Made by a program: the position numbers and the translations under genes. A stretch of 10,653 bases of DNA from Desulfovibrio sp. (GTDB taxonomy: Bacteria; Desulfobacterota; Desulfovibrionia; Desulfovibrionales; Desulfovibrionaceae): positions 1 to 10,653 of the forward strand of contig JAISXC010000061.1 in NCBI GenBank assembly GCA_031270875.1, in the 5' to 3' direction. The notes under the pieces are model-generated. The model saw only the letters and a list, made by a program, of their open reading frames with translations. It had not been told where the DNA came from and did no database searches. Positions within the stretch are counted from its first letter, which is position 1. Each line of letters opens with the position of its first letter. Positions 1,367 to 10,007 of the stretch are shown here, one piece after another.

Positions 1367-2361
1367 CCCGCTTCAAACAGTGGCGCGGCGGCCTGTGCAA
1401 GGCAGACCGCTGGTGCGTACTGATAAACGCCGATCCGGACGCGCTGGCCAGCGCTCTGGCTCTGAAGCGCATTTTGCACAGCTACGCGCACAGTATGGAA
1501 ATTTCGCGCATCAACGAGGTGACGCGGCCGGACAATCTGGCCATGATCCGCGATCTGCGCATTCCGGTGAAGGCCTGGACTCCGGAAAAATCGGCGTCTT
1601 TCAGTCATTTTGCCATTGTGGATTCCCAGCCGCGCCACAACAGACTTTTTGAGGGTATCCCCTTTTCGCTGGTCATTGACCATCATCCTTTGCCTCCGGA
1701 GGACGCCCGACCCAGCCCTCCGGAGGCTTTTTGCCTTATCCGCCCGGATTTCGGCGCCACCAGCACCATCATGACGCATTTTCTCAACAATTTGCGCATA
1801 CGCCCCACCGCGCGCCTGGCCACCGCGCTGCTGTACGGCATACGCACGGACACGGCCACCTTCGAACGGGGCGGCAGCGACAAGGATTTGCGTGCCTGGC
1901 AATGGCTTTTTCGTTTCGCGGATCTCAATCTGCTGCGCCGCATCATCCGCAGCGAATATCTGCGCGGATGGCTGCCGGCTTTTTCCCAGGCATTCCGCTC
2001 CCTCAAAGACTGTCGGGGCGGCGGGGTCTACGCTTCCCTGCACCATGTCAAAGGCGCGGATCTGCTGGTGGGAATAGCGGATTTTTTCACCAAGGTGCAG
2101 GATTTGCGCTGGGTGGCCGTGAGCGGCGTTGTGGACAAAACCGTGGTGGTGATCTTCCGCGGCGACGGCGGGCGGGATATGGGCCGACTGGCGGACGCCT
2201 GTTTTCACGATGTGGGCACGGCCGGGGGACACAAAATGATGGGCCGGGCGGAATTTCCCCTGACGGCTGTGCCCGGGGACATCAAGCCGGCGGATTTTAT
2301 TCTTCTGCGTCTGCAAAATCGCAAACTGCGCCATGTCCGGCCCCGCGATCAATCTGCTTGA
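1345..2361 (+). CDS. DHH family phosphoesterase (NrnA/RecJ-like superfamily)
   Basis: The frame is open further upstream, but the preferred start is the ATG at 1345. It follows a purine-rich stretch (GGCAGGCGG, 1331-1339), and the protein begins to look family-like only from there, giving 338 residues. Motifs in order: INADPDALASALAL (D30, D32; the usual leading His is Asn here), FAIVDSQ (D93), the signature D112-H113-H114, GATSTIMTHFL, YGIRTDTATF, and a C-terminal DHHA1-like glycine motif GGHKMMG at 294-300. These are the Mn-binding and substrate-binding elements of DHH phosphoesterases, which act on nanoRNA, pAp or cyclic dinucleotides. Which substrate applies cannot be read from the sequence. 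It overlaps cbiR by 22 bp and rlmN by 29 bp, consistent with one transcript. Confidence 0.85.
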   Translation: MGISDYVARFKQWRGGLCKADRWCVLINADPDALASALALKRILHSYAHSMEISRINEVTRPDNLAMIRDLRIPVKAWTPEKSASFSHFAIVDSQPRHNRLFEGIPFSLVIDHHPLPPEDARPSPPEAFCLIRPDFGATSTIMTHFLNNLRIRPTARLATALLYGIRTDTATFERGGSDKDLRAWQWLFRFADLNLLRRIIRSEYLRGWLPAFSQAFRSLKDCRGGGVYASLHHVKGADLLVGIADFFTKVQDLRWVAVSGVVDKTVVVIFRGDGGRDMGRLADACFHDVGTAGGHKMMGRAEFPLTAVPGDIKPADFILLRLQNRKLRHVRPRDQSA

Positions 2362-3463
2362 CCTCACCCTGCCGGAGCTTACCGCCTGGATGCGGACGGA
2401 ACTGGGCGAGCCGGCCTTCCGGGCGACGCAGGTCTGGCAATGGCTTTGGCAGAAACTGGCGCGCGATTTCGGGGACATGAGCAATGTTTCCATGGCCTGC
2501 CGCGCAAGGCTGGCCGAACGCGCCTTCATCGGCTGGCCCGAAGTGCGGTTTGTGCAAAAAAGCCGCGACGGCACGACAAAATTGCTGCTGCGTCTGCGCG
2601 ACGGCGCGCTGGTCGAAACAGTGCTCATTCCCTCGGATTCCCGCGAGGGCGCGCGGCGCTGGACGCAGTGCCTCTCCTGCCAGGTGGGCTGCGCCATGGG
2701 CTGCACTTTTTGCGCTACGGGGCAGGCTGGTTTTGAGCGCAATATGCGCATGGGGGAAATTTTGGGGCAGGTGCTGGTGGCCCGCGCCCACCTGGGCGAC
2801 GGGCGTCCGGATCATCCCGTGCTGCGCAATCTGGTTTTTATGGGCATGGGCGAGCCTTTGCTCAATCTGGAAGAAGTCCTGCGCGCCCTGCAATGCCTTA
2901 ACAGCGACAAGGGGCTCAATTTTTCCCCACGTCGCGTCACTGTCTCCACCTGCGGCCTGGAAAGAGGCCTTCCGGAACTCGGTCAAAGCGGCCTGTGCTA
3001 CCTTGCCGTGTCCCTGCACGCGCCCAGCCAGGACCTGCGCGAAAAAATCATGCCCGGCGCGGCGCGCTGGCCGCTCCCCGCCCTGATTGAGGCGCTCAGA
3101 GCCTATCCGCTCAAGACGCGGGAGCGCATTACCCTGGAATATCTGCTTATCAACGGCGTCAACGACAGCCCGCTGCATGCCCGGCAACTGGCCCGCCTTG
3201 TGGGCGAACTCAGGGGCAAGCTCAACCTCATCGTCTATAATCCTGTTGAAGGGCTTCCCTATACGGCCCCCGAACCGGAAAGGGTTCTCGCCTTTGAGCG
3301 GTGTCTGTGGAAGCGCCGCGTCACGGCCGTGGTGCGCAAAAGCAGGGGCCAGGATATCAACGCCGCCTGCGGCCAGCTCAAGGCGGGGCTTGCGCATGGC
3401 GGGTATGCGGAAGAGGGACCTTCCATCCCGAATTCGCCCGGCGCAGGCCATTCTCGCGAATGA
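2333..3463 (+). CDS. rlmN: 23S rRNA (adenine2503-C2)-methyltransferase RlmN
   Basis: Radical-SAM methyltransferase that methylates C2 of A2503 in 23S rRNA and, in studied relatives, A37 of some tRNAs; cytoplasmic. The 376-residue frame has the family length. Landmarks: N-terminal INLLDL; the helical RNA-binding region; VETVLIP at 94-100; the 4Fe-4S cysteines C120, C124 and C127 in the CX3CX2C motif; C113, which matches the catalytic cysteine just ahead of the cluster in E. coli; MGMGEP at 170-175 for SAM binding; and C346 in the VRKSRGQDINAACGQL block, matching the cysteine that becomes methylated. The ATG at 2333 sits inside the preceding gene and has no clear ribosome-binding site, so reinitiation is likely. 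About 16 extra residues follow the conserved end. Function is very secure. Confidence 0.97.
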   Translation: MSGPAINLLDLTLPELTAWMRTELGEPAFRATQVWQWLWQKLARDFGDMSNVSMACRARLAERAFIGWPEVRFVQKSRDGTTKLLLRLRDGALVETVLIPSDSREGARRWTQCLSCQVGCAMGCTFCATGQAGFERNMRMGEILGQVLVARAHLGDGRPDHPVLRNLVFMGMGEPLLNLEEVLRALQCLNSDKGLNFSPRRVTVSTCGLERGLPELGQSGLCYLAVSLHAPSQDLREKIMPGAARWPLPALIEALRAYPLKTRERITLEYLLINGVNDSPLHARQLARLVGELRGKLNLIVYNPVEGLPYTAPEPERVLAFERCLWKRRVTAVVRKSRGQDINAACGQLKAGLAHGGYAEEGPSIPNSPGAGHSRE

Positions 3464-3565: not shown

Positions 3566-3600
3566 TTGACAAAAATGCAACAATATATCATTGCATTTTT
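3566..3600 (+). promoter_or_regulatory. Candidate Zur operator overlapping the zinc operon promoter
   Basis: A perfect TTGACA (3566-3571) runs directly into a 30-bp near-palindrome at 3571-3600: AAAAATGCAA, then CA, ATATAT, CA, then TTGCATTTTT. Thirteen of the fifteen mirror pairs match. It lies 39 bp before the zrgA-like start codon in otherwise GC-rich DNA. Fur-family repressors bind AT-rich dyads over promoters, and a Zur-type gene closes this operon, so Zur is the natural candidate ligand. The -10 box is unclear: TATCAT at 3586-3591 would be only 14 bp from the -35 box. The half-site TGCAA is not the enterobacterial Zur box. The role is inferred; the dyad itself is seen directly. Confidence 0.65.
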
Positions 3601-3639
3601 CAGAGGGACTCCCCAAACTGAATGAAAAAGGAAATCGCC

Positions 3640-4236
3640 ATGAAAAAAAGTATGTTATTCGCTGCCGCCATTGCCTGCCTGGTTATGGCCGCAGCGCCGG
3701 CATTTGCCCATGAAGCCCATGAACACGGCACAGCCCGCATCAACCTGAGTCTGGAAGGGCAAAAGGTGGAAATTGAATTTGAAACACCGCTTGCCAGTCT
3801 CATTTCTTTTGAGCATGCTCCTGAAACCGACGCGCAGAAAAAAGAACTGCGCGATATGGCGACAACCATGCGAAAAGCCGATACATTGTTCGTCTTTCCG
3901 GCCGAAGCCCAATGCCGCCTGGAAAAAGTATCCCTGGAATCGGAAGCGATAACCGACGATCTGTTCTCACCGGCCGAAAAGCCCGCCGCGGCCGGCGCGA
4001 AGGGCGGGGAAAGGAAAACGGATTCCCCTGGCGACAAAAAGAAAGATGAAGAAAGTCATGCCGATCTTGACGCGGAAATATCCTTCGTCTGCCGACATCC
4101 TGAAAAATTGAACCGCATTGAGGTCGATATGTTCAGGGTTTTCCCCGGGCTGCAGAAAATCGAAATGCAGATGACCACTCCCAAAGGCCAGAGAGCGGCG
4201 AAACTTGCTCCCCGATCAAATGTTGCCAAATGGTAG
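3640..4236 (+). CDS. ZrgA-like periplasmic zinc-uptake protein (DUF2796)
   Basis: Start chosen at ATG 3640 (198 residues) because AAGGA at 3628-3632 lies 7 nt upstream; an in-frame ATG at 3622 is possible. Residues 1-23 form a classic signal peptide ending in AFA, so the mature periplasmic protein begins HEAHEHG, with three histidines suited to metal binding. The mature part shows the DUF2796 layout: a short strand (RINLSLEGQKVEIEFE), the FEHAP motif, a helix of ADTLF type, one cysteine in AQCRLEKV, a variable charged loop, HADLDAEISFVC with a second cysteine, then FPGLQKIEMQMTTPKGQ. The family includes ZrgA of Vibrio cholerae, a Zur-repressed zinc-uptake component. The variable loop is rich in Lys, Asp and Glu, with only one His at its edge. 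First gene of the operon; the next start is 4 nt past its stop. Confidence 0.82.
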   Translation: MKKSMLFAAAIACLVMAAAPAFAHEAHEHGTARINLSLEGQKVEIEFETPLASLISFEHAPETDAQKKELRDMATTMRKADTLFVFPAEAQCRLEKVSLESEAITDDLFSPAEKPAAAGAKGGERKTDSPGDKKKDEESHADLDAEISFVCRHPEKLNRIEVDMFRVFPGLQKIEMQMTTPKGQRAAKLAPRSNVAKW

Positions 4237-4240
4237 CGCC

Positions 4241-5002
4241 ATGATTGGGCATGAACCTTCGTCGGATGCCGGCAGGCCGGCGAAAGAAAAAGATTTGCCC
4301 GTTCCCGCCGTTTTTTTGGATAATGTGGTGTTTTTATGGCCCAACAGGCGGCAACCCGTGTTGAATATCCCTTTTTTCAGGGTGCGGCCGGGGGAACATA
4401 TCTTTATAGCCGGGCCGAGCGGAAGCGGGAAAAGCACTTTGCTCGGCCTGATTGCGGGCATACTTACGCCGCAATCGGGTCGGGTTTCCGTCAACGGAGT
4501 ATGCCTCAGTGACCTCAGCGGGGCGCAACGGGATGCCTTCCGCGGCGACCACATAGGATTTATTTTCCAACAATTCAATCTGATTCCCTATTTGTCCATT
4601 CTTGAGAATGTGCTGATTCCCTGCAACTTTTCCTCTCTGCGCCACGCCCGGGCCAGCGGGCAGGCCGGCAGCCCGGCGCTGGCCGCGCGGACTCTGCTGG
4701 AACGCCTGGATATGTCTTCAAGGCTTTGGAACAGAAAGGTCAATCAATTGTCCGTGGGGCAGCAGCAACGGGTTGCGGCGGCGCGGGCGCTGATTGGCGG
4801 CCCGTCCATCCTGATTGCCGACGAGCCGACATCTTCCCTTGACGCGGACAGGCGAAGAGCCTTTTTGCGATTGTTGCTCAGAGAATGCGCGGAAACGCGC
4901 TCCACGCTGCTTTTTGTCAGCCATGATCAAAGCCTCGCAGAGGATTTTTCCGCCGCGGTGTTCTTGCCGGAACTGAATACGGCGGCAGGGGAGGACGAAT
5001 AG
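4241..5002 (+). CDS. ABC transporter ATP-binding protein, LolD/MacB type
   Basis: A 253-residue nucleotide-binding subunit, peripheral on the inner membrane. Walker A GPSGSGKST is at about 58-66, the Q-loop QQFNLIPYLSILENV at 110-124, the signature SVGQQQRVAAARA at 171-183 (Leu precedes), Walker B ILIADEP at 190-196, D-loop SSLD, and the switch His in FVSHD near 228. All ATPase residues are intact. Sequence style (QQFNLIPYLSILENV, DEPTSSLD) places it with ATPases that pair with FtsX/MacB-type permeases, and exactly such a permease follows. Start: ATG 4241, 4 nt after the previous stop, is preferred. ATG 4220 and TTG 4205 are in frame and would overlap the upstream gene; no option has a strong ribosome-binding site. 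The stop overlaps the next GTG start by one base. Confidence 0.92.
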   Translation: MIGHEPSSDAGRPAKEKDLPVPAVFLDNVVFLWPNRRQPVLNIPFFRVRPGEHIFIAGPSGSGKSTLLGLIAGILTPQSGRVSVNGVCLSDLSGAQRDAFRGDHIGFIFQQFNLIPYLSILENVLIPCNFSSLRHARASGQAGSPALAARTLLERLDMSSRLWNRKVNQLSVGQQQRVAAARALIGGPSILIADEPTSSLDADRRRAFLRLLLRECAETRSTLLFVSHDQSLAEDFSAAVFLPELNTAAGEDE

Positions 5003-6273
5003 TGGCGCGCTTTTGCTATTTGCTGTTTCTTGCCGGAAAAAGCGCCTGGAATCGTCGGGGCACGCTGTTGTTGGTGGTATTTTCCATAGCTCTTTCAACA
5101 ACCCTGTTGCTTGGCATTGAAAAGCTCAGAACACAGATTCGGGAAAGTTTCGTTCAGGCCGTTTCAGGCACGGATCTGGTTGTGGGCGCGCGCGGCGGCA
5201 ACATTCAACTTATGCTGTATGCTGTCTTTCATCTTGGCGGGGCCACCAACAACATGGGGTGGCAAAGCGCGCGGGAGATAGCGAAAAGGCCGGAGGTCGC
5301 CTGGACCATCCCCGTTTCTCTGGGCGATTCCCACAAAGGCTATCCCGTGGTGGCCACCACGGCGGATTTTTTTATCCACTACCGTTTTCGGGGCGGCAGA
5401 GAACTTGTCCTGGCGCGGGGGAAAGTCTTTGAATCCGTTTTTGACGTGGTTATGGGGGCGGAAGCGGCAAAGAACCTTGGCTATGCCGTCGGTCAAAAGC
5501 TGGTGTTGAATCATGGAAGCGGCGGAACGCATTTGGCGGAACATGCGGACAAGCCGTTCGCCGTGAGCGGCATCCTCGCGCCGACGGGCACTCCGGTTGA
5601 CCGTTCTCTCTATATAGGACTTGACGCAATGGAGGCCATACATCTCAACTGGCAGGGGGGCGCGCCCATGCCCGGGCTGCGGATCACGCCGGAACAAGTT
5701 GCGAAGTTCGACCTGGAGCCCAAAAGCATAACCGCTCTTCTCGTGGGTCTGAAAAAACGTGGCCAGGTATTCGCGCTGCAACGCGTAATAAACGACTGGA
5801 AAACCGAACCGCTTACCGGGGTTATGCCCGGCGTGGCCATGGATCAAATATGGAGTATGGTCGGCGCCGGCGAACAGGCGCTCCTGTTTGTTTCCGCTTT
5901 GGTCACCGTGGCCGGTTTGGCGGGCCTTGTGGCGGCGATACTCGCGGGCCTCGGCGAGCGCAGGCGGGAACTGGCCATCCTGCGTTCCGCGGGGGCAAAA
6001 CCGGTGAATATTTTGATTCTGCTGGCCTGCGAGGGATTTCTGCTTGTGACGGCCGGAGCAGTCGGCGGAGTCGCGGCGTTATTCCTGCTCATAGCGGCCC
6101 TTGGTCCCACACTTGCCGATATGTACGGAATATTCATATATCTGTCGCCGCCTGCCGCGGGAGAATGGCTGCTGTTGGGCTGCGTCTGCCTCGCCGGGCT
6201 TCTGGCCAGCCTTATTCCCGCCTTGCGCGCATATCGCATGAGTTTGTCGGATGGCCTCACTGTCGCCATATGA
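5002..6273 (+). CDS. FtsX/MacB-type ABC permease, zinc-operon partner
   Basis: Starts at GTG 5002, inside the TAG of the ATPase gene, with a strong GGGGAGGA at 4988-4995. The 423 residues show a transmembrane helix near the N-terminus (about 20-40, RGTLLLVVFSIALS), a large periplasmic MacB_PCD-like domain (about 45-285), and a C-terminal FtsX unit with three helices (about 290-315, 335-365, 385-410). The cytoplasmic coupling segment ERRRELAILRSAGAKP lies between helices two and three and is the hallmark of this class. Type VII (mechanotransmission) permeases drive conformational work in the periplasm rather than moving substrate through a channel. With the adjacent ATPase it should form a complex that works with the periplasmic ZrgA-like and DUF3299 proteins; this pairing is inferred from operon order. 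Confidence 0.9.
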   Translation: MARFCYLLFLAGKSAWNRRGTLLLVVFSIALSTTLLLGIEKLRTQIRESFVQAVSGTDLVVGARGGNIQLMLYAVFHLGGATNNMGWQSAREIAKRPEVAWTIPVSLGDSHKGYPVVATTADFFIHYRFRGGRELVLARGKVFESVFDVVMGAEAAKNLGYAVGQKLVLNHGSGGTHLAEHADKPFAVSGILAPTGTPVDRSLYIGLDAMEAIHLNWQGGAPMPGLRITPEQVAKFDLEPKSITALLVGLKKRGQVFALQRVINDWKTEPLTGVMPGVAMDQIWSMVGAGEQALLFVSALVTVAGLAGLVAAILAGLGERRRELAILRSAGAKPVNILILLACEGFLLVTAGAVGGVAALFLLIAALGPTLADMYGIFIYLSPPAAGEWLLLGCVCLAGLLASLIPALRAYRMSLSDGLTVAI

Positions 6274-7570
6274 CGTGGTGAGGCGCACTTCCATCGCGCT
6301 GGTGGCGGCGTTTATCGCCATGTTTGCGCGGGTGCCCTCTTCCGAAGCCCAAAACTCCGCTTCCGCGACATATACCGAGATAACATGGGAGCAGCTCATC
6401 CCTGAATCCTGGCACAGGGAAAACTCTTTCAACGGCCTGAATCTGGACAGTCTTTCCGACAATGATCCGCTTGCCGCCCAGGCAATGGAGGCATATCTCG
6501 CAAAATGGAGAGATGCGCCGCCAAACGGAACGCTTCAGGAAAAACAAGTAAAAATTTCCGGATTTGTCGTTCCGCTGGAGCGGGAGAACAAGTTTTCCCT
6601 GAAAGAGTTTTTGCTGGTTCCTTATTTTGGCGCGTGCATTCACGTCCCTCCTCCTCCTCAAAATCAAGTCATCCATGTCACCCCGCGTTATCCTCTGAAA
6701 GGAATTCAGGCGATGGATACTGTTGTTGTCTATGGAAAAATAATTATAGCCGGAAGCTCAAACACTATTACAGATTCTGTTTATCGTATGGAAGCCGATA
6801 ATGTTGAAGTGTATGACGAAAATACAATATCAAATATTGTTCATGCTATGTTTATTACTTTATTATGTGGAATATCATTATGTTTTTGTTTAATATTTAT
6901 TTATAAAATACAAAAAATCAGTTCATATATTATTTGCTCCAGCATCTGTTTTTCCGCAGGAATTATGTCATGCATTGGAATTTCATCAATAGTTATGAAT
7001 TCATCTTTTACCAATGTAAGTTTGTTTCTCATAAATTTTATATTCACATCTGTTATTATTCGTCTATTGCACAATAAAAACCCAAAAGACGATTTCTGCG
7101 GCAGGATGCAACAGTCGGGGAAATTCACGGCACTGGCTGTCGCCGTGCACAGCCTGCCGGAATATTTTGCCGTGTTCAGCGCGGCCATGGCTGAGCCGGC
7201 GCTTGGTCTCGCCTTGAGCGGGGCGGTGGTCGCCCATAATATTCCCCTGGGGGCCTCCATTGCCTTCCTCTCTCATCAGGGTTCGCGCAATCATACGCTG
7301 CCACGGTTATGCCTGTTGCTTTCCGGCCTTATTCCGGCCGTTGCGGCAATTTTGCTCTATTTGTTCATGCGCTCCCTTTTGCCTGCAAGTCTGGAAACAC
7401 TTTTTTCCTGCGCAGGGGGAATCATGACCTCCATCGCCATAACGGATCTCCTGCCCTCGGCCAAACGGCACGGAAAATATTCCCATGCGCTCTGCGGCTA
7501 CTGCGCGGGAATCCTTTTTATGTTTCTTCTTTTGGCGTTTTTTTATCACGGGAGCGGGAATGGCATATAA
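6251..7570 (+). CDS. Fusion protein: periplasmic DUF3299 domain plus ZIP-type metal permease
   Basis: One uninterrupted 439-residue frame. Residues 1-35 hold a signal or anchor helix (RTSIALVAAFIAMFA). Residues about 40-190 are a DUF3299 domain with the core LLVPYFGACIHVPPPP (C129, H131). Residues about 195-435 are a ZIP permease with eight predicted helices: FSAGIM in helix 2 (M239), HSLPEY in helix 4 (H300, E304), HNIPLG in helix 5 (H329, N330), GGIMTSIAITDLLP in helix 7. ZIP proteins carry metals into the cytoplasm, and a periplasmic N-terminus fits ZIP topology. The helix 5 Glu of the usual HNIPEG motif is Leu333. DNA from about 6770 to 7090 is strikingly AT-rich and covers the domain joint and helices 1-3. 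The ATG 6251 overlaps the permease gene by 23 bp; GTG 6275 or 6278 are alternative starts. Zinc as substrate is inferred from context. Confidence 0.85.
   Translation: MASLSPYDVVRRTSIALVAAFIAMFARVPSSEAQNSASATYTEITWEQLIPESWHRENSFNGLNLDSLSDNDPLAAQAMEAYLAKWRDAPPNGTLQEKQVKISGFVVPLERENKFSLKEFLLVPYFGACIHVPPPPQNQVIHVTPRYPLKGIQAMDTVVVYGKIIIAGSSNTITDSVYRMEADNVEVYDENTISNIVHAMFITLLCGISLCFCLIFIYKIQKISSYIICSSICFSAGIMSCIGISSIVMNSSFTNVSLFLINFIFTSVIIRLLHNKNPKDDFCGRMQQSGKFTALAVAVHSLPEYFAVFSAAMAEPALGLALSGAVVAHNIPLGASIAFLSHQGSRNHTLPRLCLLLSGLIPAVAAILLYLFMRSLLPASLETLFSCAGGIMTSIAITDLLPSAKRHGKYSHALCGYCAGILFMFLLLAFFYHGSGNGI
6781..7080. other. AT-rich island inside the DUF3299-ZIP gene
   Basis: Hand count gives about 76 G/C in 300 bases (25%), against about 68% in the line at 7141-7200 and a generally GC-rich window. 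The tract uses ATA, ATT, TTA and TTT codons heavily and stays in frame. It encodes the end of DUF3299, the joint, and ZIP helices 1-3. Hydrophobicity alone does not explain it, because helices 4-8 of the same protein are GC-rich. Possible causes are a recent segmental import, a recombination joint that has not been ameliorated, or selection on local mRNA structure. Confidence 0.85.
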
Positions 7571-8108
7571 TTTCAGATGGATGATGTTTTTTGCCATTGG
7601 CTGCGTTTTTTGGCATACTTGGGTTGCGGCTGAAGAACCCGCAGGGCAAAACCCGTATCGTGAGGCGAAATGGGAAGAATTGATACCGACGTCGTGGCAT
7701 CCGGAAAAAATTTTTGACGAATTCAATTTTGATGCATTTTCAGATAATGATCCGCGCGCCGGCAAGGTGCTTGAAGCGTTTAACGAAGCCTGGAGAAACG
7801 CTCCCGCCAACCACATCCTGCAGGGTCAGCGTGTAAAAATTCCCGGCTTTGTGGCGCCCCTGGATTGGGAAAATGATGCCCAGTTGAAGGAATTTCTGCT
7901 TGTCCCCTATTTCGGCGCATGCATACATGTCCCGCCACCGCCCGCGAACCAAATCATCCACATCAGGATGGACGCGCCGCTCAGGGGAATCAGGCTGATG
8001 GACGCCGTATGGGTGTACGGAACGATTGCCGTTGAAAGAAATGATTCCGGGGAGATGGGAGCGTCAGGTTACAGCATGAAGCCGGACAAAGTGGAGCCGT
8101 ACGAATGA
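7560..8108 (+). CDS. Stand-alone periplasmic DUF3299 protein
   Basis: The frame runs further upstream, but ATG 7560 (182 residues) is the best start: GGAGCGG lies just before it at 7551-7557, and residues 1-24 then form a signal peptide ending VAA before EEPAG. The mature protein is a single DUF3299 domain with KWEELIPTSWHPEK, a DNDPRAGKVLEAF helix, KIPGFVAPL and the core LLVPYFGACIHVPPPP (C121, H123). It is a close paralogue of the N-terminal half of the preceding fusion protein; the two share a 20-residue identical block around the core Cys and His. DUF3299 proteins are found next to ZrgA-like genes; their biochemistry is not established, and a metal-binding role is inferred. The start overlaps the preceding gene by 11 bp and the stop overlaps the next gene in an ATGA. 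Confidence 0.87.
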   Translation: MAYNFRWMMFFAIGCVFWHTWVAAEEPAGQNPYREAKWEELIPTSWHPEKIFDEFNFDAFSDNDPRAGKVLEAFNEAWRNAPANHILQGQRVKIPGFVAPLDWENDAQLKEFLLVPYFGACIHVPPPPANQIIHIRMDAPLRGIRLMDAVWVYGTIAVERNDSGEMGASGYSMKPDKVEPYE

Positions 8109-8569
8109 TGCCGGCGAAGGATTCCGCCGGCATCAGCCCGGATTTCCTGACAGAGGCGGAGAATCTGTGCAGGCAACAGGGTGTGCGGCTTACCGGCCTG
8201 CGCCGCGCAATACTCGAAATACTCACATCGGCGGATTTTCCCATAAAAGCATATGATATCATTGAACATATGCGGGATAAGGGAAAACGCGTCACGCCGG
8301 CCACAATCTATCGGACATTGGCTTTTTTGCTTCAGAACGGCCTTGTGCATCGTGTGAATTCCCTGAACGCCTATGTACCATGTACCGCCAAACACAGCAA
8401 TCATGTTTTGCTGATGTTTATATGTTCAGAATGTCAAAAGACAACGGAAATAGACGATCAGACTTTGTACAACTCCATGCAGGCAAGGCTTAAGGAATTA
8501 GGCATGTCTCTTCAAGACAGCTGTATTGAGATACAGGGAATCTGCAAGGAATGTACGCAGTATGGATGA
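8105..8569 (+). CDS. zur: Zur-type zinc uptake repressor (Fur family)
   Basis: A 154-residue Fur-family DNA-binding repressor that fits Zur rather than Fur or PerR. The winged-helix region carries VRLTGLRRAILEIL and TPATIYRTLAFLLQNGLVHRV, followed by SLNAYVPC. In E. coli Zur the same spacing carries the regulatory-zinc ligands: here H82 and C93, with H97 or H100 and E115 as likely partners. Structural zinc is provided by two CXXC pairs, C107/C110 and C147/C150. It lacks the His-rich tail of the E. coli protein. The ATG overlaps the previous TGA (ATGA), so it is the last gene of the zinc operon and probably regulates its own synthesis through the dyad at 3571-3600. Repressor class is confident; autoregulation is inferred. 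Confidence 0.9.
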   Translation: MMPAKDSAGISPDFLTEAENLCRQQGVRLTGLRRAILEILTSADFPIKAYDIIEHMRDKGKRVTPATIYRTLAFLLQNGLVHRVNSLNAYVPCTAKHSNHVLLMFICSECQKTTEIDDQTLYNSMQARLKELGMSLQDSCIEIQGICKECTQYG

Positions 8570-9581: not shown

Positions 9582-10007
9582 CTACGGCCGCGACCCCGCG
9601 TTTTCCGGAAGTTCCATGTAGGTCGCGCTCTGCGCGCCCTTCTCCGATACGGTAACGCCGCGAAGGCGCACGGCCGCCGCGCGGGGGTCGGGATGGGTTG
9701 CAAGACGCTCCGCCACGGCCCGCCAGATATGGCGGGCCAGATTTTCCGAGGAGGGATTGAGCGCGTCAAAGGGCGGCGTCTCATTAAGCACGCGGTGGTC
9801 AAGCCCTGTCAGAACCTCTTTCAGCAGGCTTTTGAGAACATTGAAATCCAGCAGCAGGGCCGTGTCCGCGCTGAGCGAGATCCCTTCGACCGTCAGTTCC
9901 ACGGCGAAATTGTGCCCGTGCAGCCGCTCGCACTTGCCCTCATGGCCGCGCAGGGCGTGGGCGGCGGAAAATTCATCCCGGACGGCAAGGCGCCAGAGAG
10001 CCGTCAT
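9582..10007 (-). CDS. queD: 6-carboxy-5,6,7,8-tetrahydropterin synthase QueD
   Basis: A 141-residue member of the PTPS/QueD family. QueD converts dihydroneopterin triphosphate to 6-carboxytetrahydropterin, the second step of queuosine and 7-deazaguanine synthesis in the cytoplasm. Visible: FSAAHAL (H17) and LHGHN (H30, H32) as the zinc histidines, C26 in GKCERLHGH as the catalytic cysteine, LDHRVLNE (H71), the PSSENLARHIW substrate-binding block with E89, and VSEKGAQSATY with E122. All key residues are present. The length is slightly above the roughly 120 residues of E. coli QueD. The start codon overlaps the stop of the small upstream gene (ATGA), so the two are probably translationally coupled. 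No queC, queE or queF is seen nearby. Function is secure. Confidence 0.94.
   Translation of the reverse strand: MTALWRLAVRDEFSAAHALRGHEGKCERLHGHNFAVELTVEGISLSADTALLLDFNVLKSLLKEVLTGLDHRVLNETPPFDALNPSSENLARHIWRAVAERLATHPDPRAAAVRLRGVTVSEKGAQSATYMELPENAGSRP

Follow-up and report, generated by a model that had tools for sequence, protein, structure and literature searches.

A 10,653-nt stretch of DNA from Desulfovibrio sp. (GenBank assembly GCA_031270875.1, contig JAISXC010000061.1; the whole stretch is hereafter the window) carries a gene that encodes, in one open frame, the domain DUF3299 followed by a metal permease of the ZIP family. DUF3299 is a domain whose structure is solved and whose function is not known. 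Here, we describe this fusion, the zinc-related operon that surrounds it, its recurrence in related bacteria, the altered metal site of its permease half, and the distribution of the zinc-binding protein ZnuA across genomes with and without it. We find that the DUF3299–ZIP fusion is real and that it is very probably a permease used in zinc starvation. The fusion consists of the following elements.

6251..7570, forward strand: DUF3299–ZIP fusion gene, one open frame of 439 amino acids
6386..6808, forward strand: DUF3299 (ZrgE-like) domain, residues 46–186, with a predicted periplasmic OB-type fold
6830..7543, forward strand: ZIP permease domain, residues 194–431, eight helices

The fusion gene

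The fusion gene overlaps the preceding permease gene by 23 bases and the following free DUF3299 gene by 11 bases. Both of its domains are supported by profiles: DUF3299 (PF11736) scores 130 bits against a Pfam cut-off of 22, and ZIP (PF02535) scores 36.2 bits, barely over its cut-off of 35.1, with several relatives scoring below. The match to the ZupT equivalog (NCBIfam NF003243) reaches 101 bits, under the cut-off of 252. In the predicted structure of the fusion, the DUF3299 part adopts the OB-type fold of PA4066 (4hsp), and the membrane part forms a complete eight-helix ZIP fold that matches BbZIP. An initial annotation, made from the sequence alone, had proposed that a single frame joins the two domains, and this is what we find; the ZIP helices are supported by profile search, so the objection that they might be spurious falls away, and no stop interrupts the joint in the window or in its relatives. 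The topology proposed there, with DUF3299 outside the membrane, also fits, as ZIP termini are predicted to face outside (PMC6527156). An assembly or frameshift artefact is ruled out by the 49 listed fusion proteins found on many contigs.

The GC content of the gene falls to 0.245–0.295 over positions 6700–7099, which run from the last part of DUF3299 into the first ZIP helices (0.245 at 6800–6999), and lies at about 0.45–0.6 elsewhere in the gene. We considered this low GC as a scar of the fusion event and rejected it: among the 7 of 14 fusion genes covered by the comparison, it is strong in the window and in genome G001, weaker in G002 and G186, and absent from G185, G188 and G342.

A zrg operon around the fusion

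The fusion is the fourth gene of an operon, the other elements of which are listed here.

3574..3597, forward strand: Zur-box-like palindrome AATGCAACAATATATCATTGCATT, read as AATGCAAC-N8-ATTGCATT, 24 bases before zrgA
3622..4236, forward strand: zrgA, periplasmic zinc-binding protein (PF10986, 164 bits)
4205..5002, forward strand: ABC ATPase, zrgC-like
5002..6273, forward strand: MacB/FtsX-type permease, zrgB-like
7560..8108, forward strand: free DUF3299 gene, zrgE-like (142.8 bits)
8105..8569, forward strand: Fur-family regulator with Zur as its best NCBIfam match (116.7 bits, below the cut-off of 167)

The gene order is therefore zrgA, ATPase, MacB/FtsX-like permease, fusion, free DUF3299 and Zur-like regulator, and the whole Zrg set (ZrgA, ATPase, MacB-like permease and DUF3299) is adjacent. 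ZrgA lies above its Pfam cut-off and under the NCBIfam equivalog cut-off (120 versus 185). The scanned open reading frame (ORF) of the free DUF3299 gene begins at 7485; by reading, the start that gives a signal-type N terminus is 7560. Beyond the operon, again by reading, lie a gene for an RlmN-like radical SAM protein (2333–3463, forward strand) and one for a QueD-like protein of the 6-pyruvoyl-tetrahydropterin synthase type (9582–10007, reverse strand).

The palindrome was found by reading of the sequence. It is the sole match in the window at up to three mismatches, with 0.08 expected by shuffling and 16 of 200 shuffles containing one, for a pattern derived from this same site. A similar pattern stands at or just before zrgA in six of the 22 stretches in which zrgA was detected (the window, L001, L002, L052, L062 and L068) and was not found at zrgA in the other 16; matches elsewhere in L058, L061, L070 and L071 are chance-like. 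A gammaproteobacterial Zur-box pattern gave 10 matches at up to three mismatches against 6.1 expected, a number reached in 26 of 200 shuffles and thus near chance. The Zur-like gene at the end of the operon, together with the one palindrome before zrgA, suggests that the operon is Zur-controlled. The setting is zinc starvation, in agreement with the link to zinc import drawn in the initial annotation. That annotation also presented DUF3299 as newly linked to zinc, which does not hold: zrgE of the zinc-repressed, Zur-regulated zrgABCDE operon of Vibrio parahaemolyticus is already a DUF3299 gene (PMC9817125).

The metal site of the fused ZIP

To describe the metal site we aligned 48 fusion proteins and placed their residues on BbZIP, in which two ions are bound at the transport site. 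Residues H300, E304, H329, N330, L333, P362 and D399 of the window's protein correspond to BbZIP 177, 181, 207, 208, 211, 240 and 276, respectively; TM denotes a transmembrane helix.

7148..7162, forward strand: TM4 metal motif H300-S-L-P-E304, at BbZIP H177/E181 (H300 and E304 in 48 of 48)
7235..7249, forward strand: TM5 motif H329-N-I-P-L333 (H329 in 48 of 48)
7334..7336, forward strand: P362 of TM6, at BbZIP E240 (Pro in 46 and Gln in 2 of 48, acidic in none)
7445..7447, forward strand: D399 of TM7, at BbZIP E276 (Glu or Asp in 44 of 48)

The position of BbZIP E211 is likewise never acidic in the 48 fusions (Leu 41, Met 3, Val 2, Ser 1, Ile 1), nor is that of D208, residue 330 (Asn 41, Ser 3, Thr 3, His 1), and the N178 position holds Asn in 36 of 48. 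The fused ZIPs do not carry the BbZIP-type binuclear ligand set (H177, E181, E211, N178, D208 and E240), whereas their 11 nearest free ZupT-type relatives (P0122–P0132) keep Glu at both the E211 and the E240 positions.

What is kept resembles human ZIP2, which is reported to have a single site with the ligands His-175, Glu-179, His-202 and Glu-276, to carry Lys-203 in place of the second ion, and to transport (PMC6527156). Traced through BbZIP, the putative counterparts of these four ligands are present in 48, 48, 48 and 44 (Glu or Asp) of the 48 fusions. The ratio of non-synonymous to synonymous substitution rates (dN/dS) of the ZIP half is 0.21–0.30. A degenerate ZIP is disfavoured by this ratio and by the invariance of H300, E304 and H329. 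Because the putative counterparts of the four ZIP2 ligands are kept, and in agreement with the dN/dS, the fused ZIP is more likely to be a single-site transporter than a dead one.

Recurrence and history of the fusion

A search of 5.8 billion proteins gave 199 matches, of which the best 120 were listed. Among these 120, 49 are fusions, the window's own included; they align over 72–100% of the query and carry DUF3299, at identities that reach down to about 27–28%, and for 34 of the 49 a precomputed list gives both Pfam domains. The eight named carriers are Desulfovibrio sp. or Desulfovibrionaceae metagenome-assembled genomes (MAGs), one Deltaproteobacteria and one Candidatus Accumulibacter MAG; a strict peptide search of genomes found two fusion carriers. 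The architecture is thus conserved in relatives, and the fusion itself is already deposited in databases, under names that describe just one of its halves (‘zinc transporter ZupT’, ‘ZIP family zinc transporter’ or ‘DUF3299 domain-containing protein’).

Among 348 genomes of the order of G001, 28 have DUF3299 and 15 have the ZIP fusion. Ten of the 28 have zrgA, ATPase, permease, free DUF3299 and Zur, with no fusion. Eight have permease, fusion, free DUF3299 and Zur (one of the eight, G345, has a contig that stops after the permease), and six have the fusion followed by Zur, the fused copy being the sole DUF3299 of the genome. The rest are G186, the contig of which stops after the fusion, the fragmentary G111 and G347, and G313, which has a different fusion treated below. 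In 14 of the 15 fusion genomes the gene directly 5′ of the fusion is the MacB/FtsX-like permease (G133 has other genes there), and a Zur gene lies 3′ of it, directly or past the free DUF3299 gene, in 14 of 15. No free ZIP was found next to DUF3299 in any of the 28 stretches examined. The sequence covered for G133, G136 and G141 gave no zrgA; in G137, G143 and G139 it is set apart from the ATPase by other sequence, which by reading contains an opposite-strand gene of GGDEF/EAL appearance in L067 (G137) and L069 (G139), with a comparable gap in L068 (G143).

In a tree of DUF3299 domains, the 16 fused domains (15 genomes and the window) form one clade (support 96/87) beside the free partner copies, with long branches for several fused rows. 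A tree of ZIP halves, built by a quick method with only those free ZIPs returned by one search, groups all 48 fused rows with the fragment P0121, which by reading seems to begin with the last part of a DUF3299 domain; a starred branch sets this group apart, and ZupT-like free ZIPs are nearest to it. The simplest history would be that zrgE was duplicated, that one of the two copies became fused to a ZIP, and that some lineages then lost the free one.

DUF3299 was also followed further afield. Of 395 genomes sampled evenly across the phylum, 18 have it; 12 of these loci were new, and they gave no ZIP or NicO match among ORFs passing a filter that kept the DUF3299 frame itself in 9 of the 12. No second Pfam domain was found at E 0.1 in the longer DUF3299 proteins P0093, P0049, P0052, P0057, P0079, P0117 and P0067, and P0108 and P0112 have weak second matches below cut-off, that of P0112 being to MacB_PCD. 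On plasmid p111 of Pseudooceanicola algae (L088, 3475–7019), a zrg operon (DUF2796, ATPase and permease) is followed by two tandem DUF3299 genes and neighboured by two GTP-binding-protein genes and DUF1826; tandem DUF3299 genes thus also occur outside Desulfovibrionales. A table in PMC12777771 includes a gene list for a Vibrio vulnificus lineage with two DUF3299 genes beside an ABC permease and ATPase. Weak DUF3299 matches (35–40 bits) occur in L082–L085, with weak MacB-like permease matches at three of the four loci and a His-rich short protein in L082–L084; this is a remote DUF3299 branch, perhaps with the same partner.

DUF3299 fused to a second permease family

Genome G313, of the same order, encodes a 508-amino-acid protein in which DUF3299 (95.5 bits) is joined to NicO (45.2 bits).

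L073:8642–10168, reverse strand: DUF3299–NicO fusion gene of G313

A search with this protein gave 494 relatives, and the best 120 of the 494, query included, all have both domains (PF11736 and PF03824). Named carriers are Pseudodesulfovibrio, Desulfobacterales, Verrucomicrobiota, the planctomycete Stieleria, Rhodobacteraceae and Roseibium. The domain order is that of the ZIP fusions, DUF3299 first. NicO and ZIP are different Pfam families, and their folds are not known to be related; DUF3299 therefore precedes two different metal permeases. At the one locus fetched for the NicO fusion (L073, 19 kb), the window's proteins as queries found no zrg gene, and no plasmid record covers 80% of either the ZIP or the NicO fusion. 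These fusions qualify the role in zinc import that the initial annotation gave to DUF3299: the zinc setting stands, and the role is not peculiar to zinc import, since NicO, named for nickel transport, is fused too.

Fusion genomes have no strong ZnuA

Taking PF01297 at E below 1e-25 as strong ZnuA and tallying by eye over the 348 genomes, we find it in none of the 15 fusion genomes, in 295 of the 333 without the fusion (295 of 348 overall) and in 10 of 10 genomes with a complete unfused zrg operon (Fisher P = 8e-14 against the order and 3e-7 against the unfused operon, kinship being ignored). At Pfam's own cut-off the counts are 3 of 15 and 298 of 333, the three being G001, G002 and G139, each with a weak ZnuA relative. 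Genes of that kind (52–71 bits) occur as a second copy in 8 of the 10 unfused genomes, and in unfused G187 a ZnuA and an ABC-3 gene lie 3′ of the Zur gene on the same strand. Missing contigs are disfavoured as the cause of the absence by the comparable recovery of ribosomal protein S2 (in 14 of the 15 genomes with the fusion and, G313 left out, in 11 of the 12 that have DUF3299 without it) and of strong FeoB_N (E below 1e-50; 14 of 15 and 10 of 12). A permease tree built from the window and 23 genomes shows only two joint changes of fusion and ZnuA loss, and the contrast thus amounts to at most two independent changes and is not freed from kinship.

The fusion genomes also have no ZIP match in Pfam besides the fused one, which is itself detected in 12 of 15 (none in G133, G137 and G188). 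Nor does Pfam give a ZIP match in the 12 unfused DUF3299 genomes that are left when G313 is set aside; such matches occur in 209 of the 348 genomes, and absence of a free ZIP is therefore common in the order.

A model for the fusion and its alternatives

From the computed features (both domains, the operon, recurrence, the single clade, the residue changes, the ZnuA contrast and the NicO parallel), we infer the following chain. A second ZrgE copy, fused to a ZupT-like ZIP inside the putatively Zur-controlled zrg operon, would make a zinc-starvation permease. Its OB-fold DUF3299 would act as a docking module in the periplasm and keep the ZIP in place at the Zrg apparatus (ZrgA and the MacB-like ZrgBC). 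Zinc gathered by ZrgA would be set free at the ZIP entrance and carried by the ZIP to the cytoplasm through a single-ion site of H300, E304, H329 and D/E399. The fused ZIP would thereby carry out the passage across the membrane for which related genomes use ZnuABC. This chain is supported by the operon order from zrgA to Zur in the window, by the permease and the Zur gene that accompany the fusion in 14 of 15 genomes each, by the six genomes whose sole DUF3299 is the fused copy followed by Zur, by the single clades, by conserved residues that, placed through BbZIP, appear to match the zinc-coordinating set of ZIP2, by the lack of strong ZnuA and of any other Pfam ZIP match in fusion genomes, and by the separate joining of DUF3299 to NicO. 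We consider the full chain, with docking, single-site crossing and replacement of ZnuABC, to be somewhat probable.

Several observations weigh against this chain. The fused ZIPs have lost the Glu at the E211 position, which in BbZIP belongs to the M1 transport site, and the counterpart of ZIP2 Lys203 is absent (Asn in 41 of 48). G001, G002 and G139 have a weak ZnuA relative (54–63 bits; Pfam cut-off 29), with a strong ABC-3 permease close to it on its contig. The remaining 12 fusion genomes have either no ABC-3 match (seven) or a weak one (five; 23–31 bits, cut-off 20.1). Only one of the two joint changes of fusion and ZnuA lies on well-supported branches, and a test on independent pairs, of which there are too few, falls short of significance. 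Neither the zrg permease nor zrgA was found beside the fusion of G133. The NicO fusions speak against a role of DUF3299 limited to import or to zinc. In Vibrio cholerae, single zrgE knock-outs have no growth effect (PMC9820375), and work in Pseudomonas aeruginosa makes the case that the homologous ZrgBC pair is an exporter of the MacB type with a link to pyochelin-cobalt, with the DUF3299 protein PA4066 described as a possible tetramer with ‘no evident ability to bind Zn’ (PMC11481552).

The last of these bears directly on the idea that DUF3299 itself binds zinc, through the Cys-x-His of its CIHVPPPP loop, and passes it to the ZIP. The loop is well kept, with Cys129 in 48 and His131 in 47 of the 48 aligned ZIP fusions and the corresponding Cys and His in 120 and 120 of the 120 listed NicO fusions, and the domain is carried by two different metal permeases. 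PA4066, however, has the same loop, and the operon already has a periplasmic zinc-binding protein in ZrgA. We therefore regard the hand-off as unlikely; the initial annotation had suggested that DUF3299 binds or hands over zinc, a suggestion left without direct support by the PA4066 finding and the silent zrgE knock-outs.

It is similarly doubtful that the cargo of the fused permease is another metal (cobalt, nickel, manganese or iron) that becomes useful when zinc is scarce, a proposal made for cobalt in P. aeruginosa. The cobalt link of the PA4063–PA4066 operon (PMC11481552), the NicO fusions and the altered metal site would agree with this, whereas ZrgA, the Zur-like gene and the palindrome point to zinc. 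The nearest relatives of the ZIP half are ZupT-like, which might be set against another metal; this kinship does not counter it, because ZupT is a broad-range family.

Less likely again is that the ZIP half has ceased to transport and serves as a membrane anchor or zinc sensor for ZrgE. The loss of both glutamates that the nearest free relatives keep would suit such a role; against it stand the three invariant ligands, the dN/dS of the ZIP half, transport by the single-site ZIP2 and the missing strong ZnuA. That the fusion is a neutral joining of two neighbouring zinc genes, alike in regulation anyway, with no mechanical meaning, is very unlikely, as it is kept down to about 27% identity, is the sole DUF3299 copy in six genomes, has no free ZIP counterpart found beside DUF3299 in the 28 stretches, and is matched by a second permease family joined in the same order.

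Returning to the docked single-site permease, a bolder extension can be drawn, which we put forward as a speculative possibility: the Zrg ABC unit may be not a zinc channel but an energised periplasmic delivery machine, and DUF3299 a universal plug for inner-membrane metal permeases, welded in Desulfovibrio-type bacteria to a single-site ZIP that replaces ZnuABC, and in Verrucomicrobia, Planctomycetes and others to NicO. If true, this would settle the disputed question of import or export by the MacB-like Zrg unit. How zinc crosses the inner membrane in Zrg systems is disputed, Vibrio genetics indicating import, the MacB-like permease mechanotransmission, and Pseudomonas work arguing for export. 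A fusion in genomes devoid of strong ZnuA offers a concrete candidate for the crossing step as well as for what DUF3299 does, and with the parallel NicO fusions DUF3299 can be tested as a partner of metal permeases in general.

Comparison with known systems

The zinc link of DUF3299 is already known. In the literature searched we met no description of the ZIP or the NicO fusions, of a ZIP2-like ligand set in a DUF3299-fused ZIP clade that has lost two binuclear-site glutamates, or of the absence of strong ZnuA from fusion genomes. In V. cholerae, operon function needs ZrgA, ZrgB resembles MacB, and deletion of the whole operon is very slightly worse than deletion of zrgABC (PMC9820375); ZrgD (DUF2607) is lacking in some Vibrionaceae (PMC9817125), and the fold of PA4066 gave no clue to its role (PMC8561739).

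ZrgABCDE of V. cholerae and V. parahaemolyticus and PA4063–PA4066 of P. aeruginosa resemble the window in having ZrgA, ATPase, MacB-like permease and DUF3299 in one Zur-linked operon. As described, however, their DUF3299 is a separate periplasmic protein and no ZIP is present, whereas the window has a second DUF3299 copy fused to a ZIP. In contrast to transporters of the ZupT/BbZIP type, the fusion has an N-terminal DUF3299, has lost the E211 and E240 positions in 48 of 48 proteins and has low Zip and ZupT scores (36 and 101 bits). With human ZIP2 (SLC39A2, subfamily II) it appears to share the His/Glu/His/acid single-ion set without Lys203, a likeness for which we claim no close sequence kinship. 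A counterpart in architecture is the DUF3299–NicO fusion of Verrucomicrobia, Planctomycetes, Rhodobacteraceae and Desulfobacterota: both pair an N-terminal DUF3299 with a membrane metal permease, and they differ in the family of that permease.

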